Part shown: positions 3,736 to 35,058 of the stretch, piece after piece
Position numbering within the stretch: position 1 is the first letter of the stretch
Layout of the letters: the number at the start of each line of letters is the position of its first letter
Source of the DNA: Rhodospirillaceae bacterium
GTDB taxonomy: Bacteria > Pseudomonadota > Alphaproteobacteria > UBA828
Assembly: GCA_018666805.1 (NCBI GenBank)
Contig: JABIXB010000084.1
Location: 1 to 35,058, forward strand
Direction of reading: 5' to 3'
Length of the DNA: 35,058 nucleotides
Made by a program: the position numbers and the translations under genes
The notes under the pieces: model-generated
Database searches by the model: none
What the model was told of the DNA's origin: nothing
Seen by the model: only the letters and a program-made list of their open reading frames with translations

Positions 3736-5814
3736 CTACCGCCCTTCTGAGCGCATATTCCAGACCGCCTTGGGTTGCGCCGGGCGCCAGCCGGAGCGTT
3801 TTCTGGCGCGCCTGCGCGCAGATTTTGACGCTTTTTTTCCGCTCAGCGTAAAGCGGCAAACCTGTCCTTCTTCCTCGGGCTCAACCCACGCGCGGCCACC
3901 ATCCAGGCCGGCTGATTGATTGGCGTCTCGCAACGCCGCGCCGGTCAAATGCGCGGCGCCCACACCCTCAGCAGCGGCCCCGGCGCGCAGAACAATAAGG
4001 TGAATTTCACCCTTCTCCTCATAAGCCATGACGGCAAGCGAGGGTGGCGCCGCACCCGCTTGATGTTCAGCACCCAGCGAAACGCGCAACACACCCTCGA
4101 GCGCGCCGCCGATCGTTTTCTCGTCTCCCGACATCTGCAAGCCGTCAGCGGCATCAAGCCCGAGCTGTGTGGCGACGCCCTCATCCACCAGGCGCCGGGC
4201 AACGCGTTCGAACATGCCACGGATATCGAACCGGCCCAATTCCACCGCAGCCTCACCAACCGAGTGGCGCGACTTGCGATCTTTTTTCCACTTCCGTGCC
4301 AGGGCCGAGGCAGACGCACGGTGCATCTCAACCTCCGCCGCTACCGTGGCATCCTGTTCCGCCAGCGCCTGGAAGGCAGCGCCGCCAAGCGACGCTTCGA
4401 CGATGACGCGTGACCAATCTTCAGCCGCGCCGAAGGCCAATTGATGCGCGACTTTCAGCGCCAGACCGTCTTCGCGCGCGCCGTCATCAGATTGCCATTC
4501 GACGCGCCGTTCACCCCTGGCAAAACCAGCCAGCGCGGCGCCAAACGCCGGACCGCCGCGCAGTTCCGACATGCCGCCCTGAAGCGGCCAGCGAATGAGG
4601 GCGCGGGCATCGTCCAGCATGCGCGGATTGCGCTCGAGCCGGCTGCCAAGTTCGGCCCGCTCGGCCGTGCTCATACTGGCGACCAGCACTTTGAGCTGAG
4701 ACCAATCCTCCGGCCAGCGCGAATAAACGATTTCGTCGCCCATACTGCCGAGCTTGTCTGTTTTGCCTTGCCCGCCAGCGCCTGCGTGGCGAATGTTCCC
4801 GGCGCGGAAAAAGAGATAGATCGGAATTAAAACGAGAGCAACCGCCAGCCCAGCTAAAATTTCGAGCCAGGATACGGATTCCACCCAGCCGTTATCGCGC
4901 ACGGCATTTTGCCGGGCAGCGGCGACAGGCGGCCCAACCCGCGCGGCGGCGGTGAAATTTCCCGCCGCCCCAATGCGGTCGCTGGCGCTGTAATCGACAA
5001 ATAGAATTTCACCGTCACCGCGCCGCACAAATAAATGGCCACCGCCATCCACCGCGCCGGATTCGAGGGCCTCGCCCGGCGGCACGTTGTGGCGCGAGAC
5101 GACATGCGCCACGGGCGCCGGCTGGATTTGAGCGATTTCATCTTCGCCGATGAGAATGAGCTCACCGTTCAGCGGATCGTCGACCACATCCTCTGCCGCG
5201 GGCAAACCTTCAAGCAGCCGCGTCGTCGCATTGGTATCCAGGTCGATCTCACCGAAGGTGCCACCGGCCTCACCATCCTCGGCAAAATAATAGGCCCTGC
5301 CATCGGCCTCGACCGCGACATGGCTGAGCGAAATATCATCGCCCGTAAGCATGCCACCTATTGCCTGCAGCTCCGGGGCGGCGGGCCGGTGCGGCACATC
5401 CTCCCAGCTCTCCAATTCGATTCTGAGCGCAGCACCACCAGTTTCTTCTGGCACGCTGAAGGCGCCGCTCGCATCGCTCGTGACGCGCTGTATTTGCCGG
5501 CGCGGGCGGCTGCTCTTGGGGCTACGCAGACTATCCAAACGCCGCTGAACATCTCCGACGCCGCGCAAATCATGGGTTTTGCGTGAGCGCGCCACATTGA
5601 AATTCTGACCGTCATAATCGAATTCAACGCGCTCAATGCGTACGGAATCGCGCGATCCCACGGCATGAAGCTCGCCCTTCAGCCCCTCGCCGGCCTGTCC
5701 TGTTCCAGCGCTGAGGGGAAGCGCAACAAGCATGGCAAAGAGCAGGCGAAAAGCCCGGCCCAGGCGACATAGACGGCCCGCACGAAGAGCAGAATAAAGG
5801 CGCGTTAGCATCAT
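3736..5814 (-). CDS. Membrane protein with periplasmic sensor-like region and degenerate histidine-kinase-like C-terminus
   Basis: 692 residues from the ATG at 5814 (an ATG at 5811 and a TTG at 5847 are alternatives). A signal peptide ends near residue 41. A periplasmic part of roughly 270 residues follows, including beta-propeller-like strands such as GRAYYFAEDG and HLFVRRGDGEILFVD. One membrane helix lies at about 317-337, then a cytoplasmic part of about 350 residues. Around residues 528-590 the order FDIRGMFERVARRL...GDEKTIGGALEGVLRVSL matches the region leading into the N-box of histidine kinases, and VCRFTLSG near the end resembles their last strand. No H-box His, no N-box Asn and no DxGxG motif are visible, so it is probably not an active kinase. 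The C-terminus is strongly basic. Function unknown; the kinase-fold relation is inference. Confidence 0.7.
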   Translation of the reverse strand: MMLTRLYSALRAGRLCRLGRAFRLLFAMLVALPLSAGTGQAGEGLKGELHAVGSRDSVRIERVEFDYDGQNFNVARSRKTHDLRGVGDVQRRLDSLRSPKSSRPRRQIQRVTSDASGAFSVPEETGGAALRIELESWEDVPHRPAAPELQAIGGMLTGDDISLSHVAVEADGRAYYFAEDGEAGGTFGEIDLDTNATTRLLEGLPAAEDVVDDPLNGELILIGEDEIAQIQPAPVAHVVSRHNVPPGEALESGAVDGGGHLFVRRGDGEILFVDYSASDRIGAAGNFTAAARVGPPVAAARQNAVRDNGWVESVSWLEILAGLAVALVLIPIYLFFRAGNIRHAGAGGQGKTDKLGSMGDEIVYSRWPEDWSQLKVLVASMSTAERAELGSRLERNPRMLDDARALIRWPLQGGMSELRGGPAFGAALAGFARGERRVEWQSDDGAREDGLALKVAHQLAFGAAEDWSRVIVEASLGGAAFQALAEQDATVAAEVEMHRASASALARKWKKDRKSRHSVGEAAVELGRFDIRGMFERVARRLVDEGVATQLGLDAADGLQMSGDEKTIGGALEGVLRVSLGAEHQAGAAPPSLAVMAYEEKGEIHLIVLRAGAAAEGVGAAHLTGAALRDANQSAGLDGGRAWVEPEEEGQVCRFTLSGKKASKSARRRARKRSGWRPAQPKAVWNMRSEGR

Positions 5815-10244: not shown

Positions 10245-10880
10245 CTATTCCGCCATCAATACGTCATGGGATAGTCGCGACACCACATCATCCAACCCCT
10301 CGCCGCTCTGGCAATTGGTGAGGATCACCGGCTTGCCGCCGCGCACGGCCTCGGCATCGGCGCGCATCGATGCGACATCCACCCCGACATGGGGCGCCAG
10401 GTCGATTTTGTTAATGATCAGCAGATCGGCCTGGACGATGCCGGGGCCCTTCTTGCGCGGGATATCGTCGCCGCCCGCGACATCGATGACAAACAGCCAA
10501 TAGTCCACCAGGTCGAGTGAGAAAGTCGAGGCGAGATTGTCACCGCCGCTCTCGATAACGATCAGGTCGAGCGGCGCGAATTTACTTTCAAGCAGATCCG
10601 CCGCCTCGATATTGAGCGTCGGATCCTCGCGGATCACCGTGTGCGGGCAAGCGCCGGCCTCGACCCCCATGACGCGCTCCGGCGCGATCAGGCCACCGCG
10701 CTGCAGGCGCTCGGCATCCTCCTTGGTCACCAGGTCATTGGTCACCACGGCAAGCGAGACGCCTCGTGCTGCCAGGAGCGGCAACAGACGCTCGATCAGT
10801 GCGGTCTTACCCGACCCCACCGGCCCGCCGATGCCGACACGGGCCGAAGAAACCGCACCGGCTTGTGCTGGATTGGTCAT
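10245..10880 (-). CDS. ureG: Urease accessory GTPase UreG
   Basis: 211-residue SIMIBI-class GTPase that drives nickel insertion into urease with UreD and UreF. The P-loop is [11 protein letters not shown] (about residues 18-28), followed by [13 protein letters not shown], the metal-binding Cys-Pro-His in [22 protein letters not shown] and the base-recognition NKID. Slight differences from the common form (GVEAGACPH versus GVETGGCPH) are conservative. A GAGG ribosome site lies about 11 bases upstream of the ATG. Between ureD and this gene is a 172-base gap containing copies of a dispersed 73-bp repeat, unusual inside an otherwise compact operon. Confidence 0.96.
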
Positions 10881-10914
10881 ATGATCCGTTTCCTCTTTGT
10901 CTGTTCCCTCAAAC

Positions 10915-11020
10915 GCCGGGCGGTCGCATCCGCGACCTTGGCTACCTCGTATTAACTCGGGCGCACTCTTTATTTAAACCCTCAATCGCCGGGCGCGCGC
11001 ATCCGCGCGCTTGGCTTGGC
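10915..11020. repeat. 73-bp repeat family, one full and one partial diverged copy
   Basis: A full unit (10915-10987) beginning GCCGGGCGGTC and ending CCCTCAATC is followed in phase by a partial unit from 10988. Both belong to the family repeated in tandem at 34902-35058. The first unit can fold GGTCGC (10922-10927) with GCGACC (10932-10937) around loop ATCC. The second has the same loop with GCGCGC (10995-11000) and GCGCGC (11005-11010), so the stem is kept while its sequence changes. It lies between ureD and ureG and would be transcribed with them. The right-hand boundary is approximate because the second copy degenerates after about 30 bases. Confidence 0.85.
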
Positions 11021-11052
11021 GCGCTTGCCAGAATGCCCTATGCATACTGGAG

Positions 11053-11922
11053 TTATTTGGGCCGCTTGGCCGGTTCCGCGCCGCTAACTTTGAGCCGCGC
11101 CGCCGTCCAGCTCGCCTTAATCGCCGCGCGCAGCGCCAAACCGTCTTTAGCAAGTATACGCACCCAGGCGCCGCTCTCCTGCGGCAGGGTTGAGGCGCCG
11201 GCATAGATGCCCTGACACGACCCCAAAGCATCGCGCAGCACCGCCGCCATTTCTTCCGCCGAGCAACCGGTATGGACGACCATCAGCGTACCATGCGCGG
11301 GATAGGCCTCAGCCTTTCCGTCGAGATGCGCCTCAGCCACGTCGCCATCGATATCGAAGCGGTCAAAGGCGAGCAGCGTACCGTCCGGGCGCTCGATCCT
11401 GGTCTCGGCCGCCAGGCGGGCAAAGCGCCCGCCCGCTTCATCCGAATCATGCTGGGTGAAGGCGTCCGAGAGAATGACCGTGGCGCTCGGCTCGGCCGCC
11501 ACCCGAAGTGTGGTCTCAAACTGCGCGCCGGGAAACAGGATCAATGGATCGGGCAGATATTCCAGCAGCGCGCCTTCGCCGGCACGGATCACCATGTCCT
11601 GACGCGCCGCACCATCGGTTTTCATACGGTGCACGATAGTCGCCGACTGGGTCGTCACCTGAGCCAGCGCGCCGGCCTCGGCTTCCAGTGTGAGAGCCAA
11701 CGCCTCGCCGCGGTAAATACCACCCGAGACCGACTGCAAATAAAGCGTCAGCATGCCTTGTGGCACCTTGTCGAGGTAGAACGGCCGGGTGATGTGGAAC
11801 GGATAGCCGACGCGCTGATGCGAGATAAAGGTGTGCCCGTCCGGCGCACGGGTGAACACCAGTTCAGCCTGGGGCTGAACAGCCAGCGGCGCAGACTCGG
11901 CCAAGTTATTTGCTTGCGACAA
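11053..11922 (-). CDS. ureD: Urease accessory protein UreD
   Basis: About 289 residues; UreD (UreH) is the scaffold that binds apo-urease and channels nickel from UreG. Family features are LVFTRAPDGHTFISHQRVGYPFHITRPFYLD, the YLQSVSGGIYRGEAL segment, LEAEAGALAQVTTQSATIVHRM and ALLEYLPDPLILFPGAQF. The start is uncertain. A TTG at 11922 is chosen because it lies 11 bases after the ureC stop and has AGGGA at a normal distance; a GTG at 11985 would overlap ureC by 52 bases. It sits directly downstream of ureC and upstream of the repeat-containing gap before ureG. Confidence 0.9.
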   Translation of the reverse strand: MSQANNLAESAPLAVQPQAELVFTRAPDGHTFISHQRVGYPFHITRPFYLDKVPQGMLTLYLQSVSGGIYRGEALALTLEAEAGALAQVTTQSATIVHRMKTDGAARQDMVIRAGEGALLEYLPDPLILFPGAQFETTLRVAAEPSATVILSDAFTQHDSDEAGGRFARLAAETRIERPDGTLLAFDRFDIDGDVAEAHLDGKAEAYPAHGTLMVVHTGCSAEEMAAVLRDALGSCQGIYAGASTLPQESGAWVRILAKDGLALRAAIKASWTAARLKVSGAEPAKRPK

Positions 11923-11933
11923 TAGCCGTATCC

Positions 11934-13643
11934 CTAGCGCATCAGATAGTTCTGGCCGAGCGTCACTTCCGTCGCCGGCTCGCACGCCGCCAGCTCGCCA
12001 TCGACAAACACGTCGAAGGTCGAGGGGTCGACACGGATATCCGGGCAGAAATCATTATGCAACATGTCTTTCTTACCGAGCTTGATGAAGCTCGACATGG
12101 GCAGCATTTTCTTGGCCAAGCCCAAAGTGCCGGGCAGATCGATATCGAGCGCACGTTGATGCACGAAGTTGACGCTTAAGCTTTGCGGCGCCCGGCCGCA
12201 ACCACCGAATTGGGCGCGCTGGATCACCGGCTCGGTCTGGAAATAGCTGCCCGCACTGTCGCCGGTGGCGCCGTGCGCGACAAAGCCGCCCTTGATGGTG
12301 CCGAATGGCTTGATGCCGAAGAAGGCCGGCTTCCACGCCACCAGATCGGCCATCTTGCCAACTTCGATCGAGCCGACATATTGATCGATGCCGAAAGCGC
12401 GCGCCGCGTTGATGGTGTATTTGGCGACATACCGCTTGATCCGCTCATTGTCGGCATCAACGGTTTTCTCATGTGAGAGGCGGCCGCGCTGAGAGCGCAT
12501 CTTGCTCGCCAACTGCCAGCAGCGCGAGATCACCTCATTGACCCGGCCCATGCCCTGGCTGTCGGAGCCGAACATCGAGATCGCGCCCATATCGTGCAGC
12601 ACATCCTCGGCCATCATGGTTTGCGGCCGCACCCGGCTTTCAGCGAAGGCAACATCCTCCGGCAAATCATAGCGCAGCAGATGGCAAGACATGGTCATGT
12701 CGAGGCCCTCGTCAAACGCGTTCAGGGTGTAGGGGTTGGTCGGGTTGGTCGAAGACGGCAGCAGATGCGGCTCGCCATTGCAGCGGATGATATCCGGCGC
12801 ATGGCCGCCACCACCGCCTTCGGTGTGATACATGTGCATGGCGCGGCCATTGATGGCGGCCAGCGTATCCTCATAAAAGCCCGATTCATTCAGCGTGTCG
12901 GTATGGATCATGACTGGGAAGTCATATTCCTGCGACGCGGTGAGGGCGCCGTTGATGGTCGCCGGCATGGCGCCGTAATCCTCATGGATCTTCATGCCGA
13001 TAACGCCGCCGTCGAGATGCTCGGCCACGGTATCGGGATCATGCGACGAGCCGCGCCCGAAGAAGCCGAAATTGATTGGCCACTTTTCCGATGCCTCATG
13101 CATGCGCGCGGTGTTCCACGGGCCGCCGCAATCGATGGCAAAGAGCGGCCCCATGCTGCCGCCGATCATCGTCGTGAGGCCGGTCGAAATGGCATTCTCG
13201 CACTGCTCGGTCGAGAGAAAATGAATGTGCACATCGATCCCGCCGGGCGTCACGATCAGCCCACCGGCCGGGTAGTAGGTGGTGTTCGGCCCGCACACCA
13301 TATTGTCGCTCACACCATCCTGGATATTGGGATTGCCGGCCTTGCCGATGCCGGCAATCTTGCCGTCGCGCACGCCGATATCGGCTTTGATGATGCCCTG
13401 CACCGGATCGATAATGGTGGCATTCTCGACCAGCATGTCGAGCGCGCCATCGGCGCGCGAGGTATGCGCGTCATAGGCCATGCCGTCGCGCATCACGCGC
13501 CCGGCGCCGGTCCAGCATTCCTCACCGTATACCGTATGGTCGTGCTCGATTTCGGCCAGAAGCGAGGTATCACCGAGGCGAATCTTATCGCCCTTGGTCG
13601 GACCATAGAGGCTGGCATATTGTTTTCTGCTGATTTTCGCCAT
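11934..13643 (-). CDS. ureC: Urease alpha (catalytic) subunit
   Basis: 569 residues, the usual length. It hydrolyses urea to ammonia and carbamate at a di-nickel site. Metal and active-site residues are in place: His139/His141 (DVHIH), the carbamylated Lys218 and His220 (GMKIHED), His247 ([11 protein letters not shown]), His273 ([14 protein letters not shown]), flap Cys320-His321 (SCHLL) and Asp361 (GSDSQGMGR). Between the HxH pair and Lys218 the protein is about four residues shorter than the Klebsiella enzyme, and the usual GTGPA-GT-ATT-TPG stretch is replaced by [15 protein letters not shown]. The second flap His is Leu. The ATG at 13643, with GGGGAG about nine bases upstream, gives the standard N-terminus ([13 protein letters not shown]). 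Confidence 0.97.
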
Positions 13644-32275: not shown

Positions 32276-33469
32276 TCAACCTATAGCCTGGGCAAGGTCT
32301 TCCTTGACGTCCTCGACGTCCTCCAGGCCCACGGAAAGGCGCAACAGGCCGTCCGAGATGCCGAGCGCCGCCCGTTCCTCCGGCTGAAGGCGCTGGTGGG
32401 TTGTCGTCGCCGGGTGGGTAATCAGGCTTTTCGCATCTCCGAGATTGTTGGATATATCGATCAGCTGAAGGCGGTTAAGCAGGTCGAACGCCGCCGCTTT
32501 ACCGCCCGACATATCGAAACTGACAACCGTGCCGCCGGCGCTCATTTGGCTTTGCGCGAGCGCATATTGCGGATGGCTCTCAAGGCCCGGATAAAGCACC
32601 TTTCCGACCGCGCCGCATGATTGCAAAAAGCCCGCAACCGCCAGCGCATTGGCGCACATGCGCTCGACCCTTAATTCCAGCGTCTCCAGGCCCTTCAACA
32701 AGACCCAGGCATTAAACGGGCTGAGCGAGGGGCCGGTGTGGCGCAGGAACGGCAGCAATTCGTCATCGACAAAGGCCTGGTCCGACAATATCGCGCCGCC
32801 AAGACAGCGGCCCTGGCCGTCGATATGTTTGGTCGCGGAATAGACAACGATATCAGCGCCAAGCTGCATGGCGGGCTGCAACAGGGGCGTGGCAAATACA
32901 TTGTCGACAATCAGGCGCGCGCCGTTTTCTTTCGCCAGCGCCGAAACCGCCGGCAAATCAATTATCTCAAGCGTCGGATTTGACGGTGATTCCAAAAAGA
33001 CGCAAGCCGTCTCGGGCCGGAACGCCGCTTGCCACTGGGCCATATCCGTGCCGTCCACAAGCGTTACCTCGATGCCATAGCGCGGCAGTAATTCACCGAC
33101 AATATAGAGGCAGGAGCCAAACAGGGCGCGCGACGCGACAACATGATCGCCGGCCCGCAGCTGCGCCATCAAAGCAGCGAACACAGCCGCCATACCGGTG
33201 CTCGTCGCCTTGCACGCCTCGGCGCCTTCCAACAGGGCCAAGCGCTGTTCGAACATGGCAACGGTGGGGTTGCCAAAACGCGAATAAACAAAGCCTGGCG
33301 CCTCGCCCTTGAAGCGCGCTTCCGCCTCGGCCGCGCCGTCATAGACATAGCCCGAGGTCAGAAATATCGCCTCGCTTGTCTCGCCATGGCCTGAGCGCGT
33401 CGTGCCGCCGCGCACCAGACGGGTTGCCCGGCGCCACTTCTTGCCGTCGCTGCTGCTGTTCTTCGCCAT
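32276..33469 (-). CDS. metZ: O-succinylhomoserine sulfhydrylase
   Basis: 397-residue PLP enzyme of the Cys/Met metabolism family, making homocysteine directly from O-succinylhomoserine (or O-acetylhomoserine) and sulfide. Features: TRLVRGGTTRSGHGETSEAIFLTSGYVYD at the N-terminus, YSRFGNPTV, the PLP Lys in YSATKHIDGQGR and SVGLEDVEDVKEDL at the end. The N-terminal pattern is closest to MetZ; MetB/MetC-like activity is the alternative. ATG at 33469 with AAAGG upstream. The leader carries a SAM-II riboswitch and an intrinsic terminator, which fits methionine-pathway control. Confidence 0.93.
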   Translation of the reverse strand: MAKNSSSDGKKWRRATRLVRGGTTRSGHGETSEAIFLTSGYVYDGAAEAEARFKGEAPGFVYSRFGNPTVAMFEQRLALLEGAEACKATSTGMAAVFAALMAQLRAGDHVVASRALFGSCLYIVGELLPRYGIEVTLVDGTDMAQWQAAFRPETACVFLESPSNPTLEIIDLPAVSALAKENGARLIVDNVFATPLLQPAMQLGADIVVYSATKHIDGQGRCLGGAILSDQAFVDDELLPFLRHTGPSLSPFNAWVLLKGLETLELRVERMCANALAVAGFLQSCGAVGKVLYPGLESHPQYALAQSQMSAGGTVVSFDMSGGKAAAFDLLNRLQLIDISNNLGDAKSLITHPATTTHQRLQPEERAALGISDGLLRLSVGLEDVEDVKEDLAQAIG

Positions 33470-33486: not shown

Positions 33487-33513
33487 AAAAAACCCCGGCC
33501 GGTCAGGTCGGGG
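33487..33513 (-). terminator. Intrinsic terminator in the metZ leader
   Basis: On the minus strand CCCCG-A-CC, loop, GG-C-CGGGG forms a hairpin directly followed by six T residues. The first arm CGACC (33510-33506) can alternatively pair with GGTCG (33530-33526), which overlaps the 3' edge of the SAM-II aptamer. SAM binding would therefore free the terminator arm and stop transcription before metZ. The switch mechanism is inferred from base pairing. Confidence 0.75.
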
Positions 33514-33528
33514 CTCATACGGGCTCGA

Positions 33529-33582
33529 CCTTTTAGCGGTTTGTTTTACGTGGCCGCAAGCCGGTCGGCTCAAATCACCACG
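33529..33582 (-). ncRNA. SAM-II riboswitch aptamer
   Basis: Reading the minus strand, helix P1 is CGTGG (33582-33578) paired with CCACG (33553-33549). Inside and after it are the conserved blocks of the SAM-II (metA) class: TGATTTG right after the first P1 strand, GCTTGC before the return strand, CACGTAAA just after it, and CGCTAAAAGG at the 3' end, which forms the pseudoknot. SAM-II is largely confined to alphaproteobacteria and sits ahead of metA, metX or metZ, exactly as here. When S-adenosylmethionine is plentiful it represses the gene, here most likely through the terminator just downstream. Confidence 0.9.
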
Positions 33583-33594
33583 TTCGAGGGCCCT

Positions 33595-34807: not shown

Positions 34808-34881
34808 GCGGGTGTAGCTCAATGGTAGAGCATAAGCTTCCCAAGCTTGTGACGGGGGTTCGATTCCCCTCACCCGCTCCA
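34808..34881 (+). tRNA. tRNA-Gly (anticodon CCC)
   Basis: 74 bases with a complete cloverleaf: acceptor stem GCGGGTG/CACCCGC, D arm GCTC-AATGGTA-GAGC, anticodon arm with loop TTCCCAA (anticodon CCC, reading GGG), T arm with TTCGATT loop, discriminator T and an encoded CCA tail (34879-34881). Upstream, TTGCCT and TATCGT may serve as promoter hexamers. It is followed within 20 bases by tandem copies of the 73-bp repeat. Confidence 0.96.
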
Positions 34882-34901
34882 TATTTGTTCGCCCCTCAGA
34901 T

Positions 34902-35058
34902 GCCGGGCGGTCGCGTCCGCTCCCTTGGCTACCTCGTATTAACTCGGGCGCGCTCTATATTTAAACCCTCAATCGCCGGGCGGTCGCGTCCGCTCCCTTG
35001 GCTACCTCGTATTAACCCGGGCGCGCTCTATATTTAAACCCTCAATCGCCGGGCGGTC
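34902..35058. repeat. Tandem 73-bp repeats, running off the window
   Basis: Unit 1 is 34902-34974, unit 2 is 34975-35047, and a third begins at 35048 and is cut by the window end. The two full units differ by a single base (CTCGGG versus CCCGGG). Each begins GCCGGGCGGTC, contains ACCTCGTATTAAC and ends CCCTCAATC. A related fragment may precede unit 1 (CCCCTCAGAT, 34892-34901). The same unit occurs at 10915 between ureD and ureG. The repeat follows tRNA-Gly. It has one long open reading frame in translation, but nothing suggests it is a gene. Confidence 0.93.

Follow-up and report, generated by a model that had tools for sequence, protein, structure and literature searches.

Tandem 73-bp repeats behind a tRNA-Gly gene as probable half-copies of a MITE-like, multi-hairpin element of Alphaproteobacteria

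What kind of element produces near-identical 73-bp units in tandem behind a tRNA-Gly gene and further units of the same kind within a urease operon? The question is raised by a stretch of 35,058 nucleotides (the window), which is the entire contig C298 of a Rhodospirillaceae draft genome (3.92 Mb in 317 contigs, 98% complete). A preliminary description had suggested a REP/MITE-like mobile or structural repeat, possibly genome-wide and lineage-specific.

Tandem Repeats Finder (TRF) detected on the window a period of 73 bp at 34893-35058, with 2.3 copies and 96% matches, which confirms the tandem units after tRNA-Gly (Table 1). The start had been placed at 34902; this is the first base of a hairpin inside the unit, while the unit itself begins with CCCTCA at 34893. 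After the CCCTCA motif, unit 1 contains hairpin 1 (34902-34929), the region of hairpin 2 and the left half of the hairpin 3 stem, and it closes with the leader of the following unit. Because the contig ends within the array, the number of units at tRNA-Gly is a lower bound. The T-rich leader between the tRNA gene and unit 1 probably belongs to the inserted DNA. The units follow each other without spacers, as had been noted, and a CRISPR-like array is ruled out on that ground.

A full and a partial unit had also been described within the urease operon, and both were found between ureG (10245-10880, minus strand) and ureD (11053-11922, minus strand), genes that were called with a simple codon model trained on the window itself. 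The first of these units is 90% identical across the 73 bp, and the arms of its hairpin 1 are paired throughout (GGTCGC-ATCC-GCGACC). The second, terminal unit consists of CCCTCA, hairpin 1 (10988-11015), a shortened link and an end palindrome CCAGAATGC..GCATACTGG (11028-11050); it resembles the 73-mer only over the first 38 bases (10979-11016), beyond which its right end is a different one. Three positions, 10937, 34924 and 34997, carry the 20-mer CTTGGCTACCTCGTATTAAC; shuffled sequences give a value of 0.01 for it, hence the shared 20-mer is not a matter of chance.

Table 1. Repeat units and adjoining features in the window.
Feature	Position	Strand	Basis and remarks
tRNA-Gly (CCC)	34808-34881	+	directly 5' of the array; ARAGORN, Rfam tRNA
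T-rich leader TATTTGTTCGC	34882-34892	+	comparable leaders before most copies
73-bp unit 1	34893-34965	+	TRF, whole-genome search, alignment of copies
73-bp unit 2	34966-35038	+	TRF, whole-genome search
Start of unit 3, interrupted by contig end	35039-35058	+	whole-genome search
73-bp unit, ureG-ureD gap	10906-10978	+	whole-genome search; presence varies within the genus
Terminal unit, ureG-ureD gap	10979-11050	+	covariance model matches

The proposed spread over the genome, mainly intergenic and mobile in appearance, was borne out. Searches of the whole genome and of its relatives gave dozens of copies, so those in the window are not the sole ones: a covariance model found 83 matches in the window's genome, at about 65 sites, and 84, 28, 103, 11 and 1 matches in five congeners. 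What occupies these sites is a multi-hairpin element composed of the leader, CCCTCA, hairpins 1-3 and an end palindrome. Local expansion of a simple minisatellite, at two places, would explain the strict 73-bp period at 34893-35058, but it is an extremely improbable explanation, refuted by the dispersed sites and by the fact that longer, non-tandem copies are the usual form; moreover, the tRNA-Gly site of two congeners (G001 and G003) holds single full copies.

The 73-mer itself has 52 matches in the genome, most of which span only about bases 1-61 and then diverge. The 73-bp unit is the left half of a longer element and not a free-standing element of 73 bp. An alignment of 19 copies gave the usual order as CCCTCAnnC, hairpin 1 (GCCGG-GC-[arm]-ATCC-[arm]-TTGGC), a link (CTACCTCGTATTAA), hairpin 3 (CGG-GC-GCGC-AGTC-GCGC-TTG) and the end palindrome CCGGAATGC..GCATTCCGG. 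A T-rich leader precedes most copies and the tail TTGGTGGTGCCGTTTGGAAGAATC often follows. In the 73-bp unit this order breaks off within hairpin 3, in its left arm, and the next leader follows directly (CTCGGGCGCG-CTCTATATTTAAA-CCCTCA). The 73-bp tandem is a derived, secondary form of the family. Its strict period is real for the tandem half-element and is not a family trait, since copies mostly stand alone and measure about 95-145 bp. Further derived forms are units of about 79 bp in L249 and of about 83 bp in congener G002 (locus L291); in the latter tandem array, at about 3960-4480, the left portion of hairpin 1 runs straight into the right portion of hairpin 3.

The right end of the tRNA-Gly site is carried by another contig of the assembly. 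This contig, C303 (L004), opens within a unit and carries a gene with 76-83% identity to the one that lies downstream of tRNA-Gly in the four congeners G001-G004; C298 and C303 therefore very probably flank a single assembly gap at the array.

Comparison with the congeners revealed that insertion sites are polymorphic, including both sites in the window, each of which is occupied in three species. The element is present between ureG and ureD in G000, G001 and G003; in G002 and G004 the gap measures about 60 bp and is devoid of the element, and G005 has no copy there. After tRNA-Gly the sequence runs directly towards the convergent gene in G002 and G004, and no copy occurs in G005. Four further loci (L003, L019, L036 and L045) are likewise empty in G002. 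The flanks of sister species are only 70-85% identical, which rules out reading a target duplication directly in this genus, and most copies in the genus are without recognisable terminal inverted repeats.

The ends can be seen in relatives from several genera, where the complete element measures 137-174 bp and has TACC...GGTA ends. It is flanked by TNA on both sides, and in a manual count from the list of complete copies across genomes the middle base was identical in 25 of 29. Azospirillum sp. RU38E (G308) has terminal inverted repeats (ATACCAATC/GATTGGTAT), as expected of a MITE, and identical TNA flanks in 20 of 22 scorable copies; internally deleted derivatives of 84 and 112 bp retain these flanks. 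A 3-bp stagger in the cut would suggest a DDE transposase and not an enzyme of the HUH/RAYT kind, and TNA duplication is attributed to IS5-group elements of the IS1031 type. None of the six DDE_Tnp_1 (PF01609) loci of RU38E has TACC..GGTA ends that would mark an autonomous partner. In the window no transposase had been seen before, and this holds for the window proteins compared with Pfam, a subset of the ORFs.

RU38E also contains many free-standing palindromes of 31 and 39 bp (TACCAACGGTCAT..ATGACCGTTGGTA and TACCAAGTTGCGATGAG..CTCATCGCAACTTGGTA; for example C16:26201-26231), which share the ends of the composite element. The end hairpins of the element resemble palindromes such as the first of these, and the free-standing forms may be the minimal mobile unit. 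The palindrome pattern is commoner backwards than forwards, so that evidence comes from the repeated identical palindromes and not from the raw count.

These data bear on the REP half of the earlier label. Movement of a REP/BIME element by a RAYT (Y1, HUH) transposase that acts on single-stranded hairpins would agree with the imperfect hairpins with their constant bulge and G-T pairs, with the bias towards gene 3' ends and with the tandem arrays, and in congener G003 a Y1 gene has an element copy at its 3' end. However, there is no copy on the other side of this gene. The proposed search for a RAYT-type transposase detected no Y1_Tnp in the window's genome, while control genomes gave a signal, and Y1_Tnp is also absent from eight of the 12 other carriers (G001, G002, G004, G010, G195, G032, G065 and RU38E). 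Furthermore, neither a GTAG nor a CGTC tag is conserved, the bases beside hairpin 1 differ between genera, and the TNA duplication in relatives contrasts with HUH transposition, which is not known to leave a target duplication. A REP in the RAYT sense is therefore very unlikely, whereas the MITE-like part of the label stands on the TACC...GGTA ends and the TNA duplication of the relatives.

Taken together, the units probably represent a MITE-like, non-autonomous mobile element of Alphaproteobacteria, whose left half is here repeated in tandem. The ancestral form would have been inserted at TNA sites by a DDE-type transposase supplied in trans, with the hairpin ends serving as its substrate, and in the window's genus most copies would have lost or replaced their TACC/GGTA ends. 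Unequal recombination or slippage, with GGGCGCGC in hairpin 3's left arm and GCGCGCTC in the leader as the two partners, could have produced the 73-bp tandem; recombination over a shared GCGCGC-type sequence would drop the right half and repeat the left half. Copies would persist where they are least harmful, between convergent genes and after tRNA genes, and as RNA they could form stable 3' hairpins.

The positions of the copies were compared with gene orientation. The 62 element-bearing gaps in the window's genome comprise 34 convergent, 26 tandem and two divergent ones. With 460 element-free gaps of congener G002 as the null, because the gap sample from the genome itself was chosen around elements, convergent gaps are in excess (34 of 62 against 14% expected, p=7e-14) and divergent gaps are depleted (2 of 62 against 23% expected, p=5e-5). 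One of 72 copies overlaps a gene, as called with the codon model trained on the window. In tandem gene pairs 12 copies have the same orientation as transcription and 17 the opposite one. Such a placement would be expected if copies insert, or survive, behind gene ends and have no strand preference. An intrinsic terminator is ruled out: on neither strand are the hairpins followed by a T-run, and the T-rich leader is on the wrong side.

The claim that the repeat is specific to one lineage was not upheld, since the core hairpin occurs class-wide. The core pattern CCCTCANNCGCCGGGCGN{6,20}CTTGGC matched 21 of 289 alphaproteobacterial genomes, with up to 181 copies in one of them (G064), and the reversed control pattern gave zero matches among the same 289. 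In a phylum-wide sample of 398 genomes nine matched, all of them Alphaproteobacteria. Among the matches listed, the carriers are Azospirillum, Niveispirillum, Nitrospirillum, Aerophototrophica, Magnetospirillum and relatives, and Phyllobacterium; one MAG (L160) carries a variant identical in type to that of the window. Another MAG, C5coas_bin-2163 (CAIXKV01), has many near-identical composite elements, and because these are located at contig ends the family probably fragments its assembly.

The class-wide copies also allow a test of folding. The 16-nt inner strings of hairpin 1 were perfectly paired in 24 of 47 distinct cases, against 5.0 expected, and none of 2000 shuffles gave more than 12; this test speaks to the arms only, as the search pattern itself fixes the flanks. 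The stem of hairpin 1 thus changes by compensating pairs while its flanks are constant, and here the class-wide test is stronger than the single-genome covariance model, in which covariation was modest (three pairs with two-sided change). In many copies two additional hairpins, whose loops are short and recurrent, form downstream of hairpin 1; folding of this region had a mean z of -1.7 over 93 diverse copies, of which 35 were below -2. Across the class, conservation is highest in this internal hairpin core; that it is not highest at the ends is unusual for a MITE.

Such conservation could also mean that the three-hairpin core is a structured RNA or a protein-binding DNA under selection, acting in 3'-end processing, mRNA stability or as a bidirectional transcription barrier, and that mobility is secondary. 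The compensatory changes, the recurrent loops and the location after gene ends would agree with this, as would the GG/TT that is retained as G-U pairs in 19 of 19 model copies. However, neither strand is favoured in tandem gene pairs, the missing T-run speaks against a terminator, and the distribution is patchy, with individual sites not conserved; we judge this explanation unlikely. We can suggest only tentatively a combined form, in which the class-wide core with its three small hairpins, fixed flanks and recurrent loops is under selection for structure and is a functional RNA or folded-DNA module for some recognising factor, spread among Alphaproteobacteria by terminal palindromes (TACC..GGTA, TNA duplication) that were repeatedly swapped.

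The mobile element that we favour was compared with known systems. No Rfam family matched it at or near the gathering score. BOX elements of pneumococcus, which belong to a different phylum, are modular, and one module may be tandemly reiterated; the present element is similar in this respect, by description only and not by sequence. Bacterial MITEs such as ERIC, RUP and NEMIS/Correia served as the main comparison group (PMC2229807). Like these, the present element is about 100-170 bp long, non-coding, abundant, intergenic, foldable as RNA and without a transposase of its own, and its complete copies have terminal inverted repeats and a short target duplication. Unlike in these MITEs, the duplication is TNA (3 bp) instead of TA, each end folds back on itself as a separate hairpin instead of pairing with the opposite end, and an internal core with covarying stems is conserved across the class.

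The GTAG/CGTC REPs, of which the CGTC type is common in Alphaproteobacteria, are single hairpins of 20-40 bp with a GTAG or CGTC tag (PMC3733652). They too are palindromes in high copy number; those of the CGTC type, short hairpins that carry the tag and have CCA tails, differ from the present element, which is multi-hairpin, has target duplications and is without a RAYT partner. CIR1-4 of Caulobacter and Brucella are intergenic repeats of about 110 bp with hairpin arms, a linker and uncertain mobility, features that the present alphaproteobacterial element shares, and are defined by conserved GANTC (CcrM) sites (PMC2229807). In the core of our element GANTC is depleted (two sites in 200 copies against about 34 by base shuffling, none in the window copies), which rules out a CIR on the basis of that defining site and not of CIR sequences. 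A search of literature text with fragments of the element gave only chance primer matches; subscription papers are sparsely covered in it, so that novelty is unproven.

The element is thus ordinary in kind, a small non-autonomous repeat, but the family is widespread, has an unusually conserved folded core and is apparently undescribed. With up to 181 core copies per genome it occupies many of the intergenic gaps and interrupts assemblies. Since its core varies through compensating pairs and its ends are not fixed, it lends itself to testing whether the folded core, and not the ends, is the reason why a small mobile repeat is retained. The signature TNA-TACC...GGTA-TNA is diagnostic for finding the transposase.

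Several other features were noticed. A second repeat, AATTATGGTGACAG / CTGTCCCCATAATTA, is present at L374 (G003:C55) 1-1400 and in the flanks of L006, L022, L025 and L033; it recurs beside elements, borders the Y1 transposase gene in G003 and looks like a separate family with terminal inverted repeats. A 5_ureB_sRNA match in the window (13193-13497, plus strand, 57.8 bits, Rfam) is on the strand opposite the urease alpha gene and may reflect merely conservation of coding sequence. Finally, a SAM-alpha riboswitch (33513-33591, minus strand, 71.1 bits, Rfam) is located just upstream of a 397-aa ORF (32276-33469).
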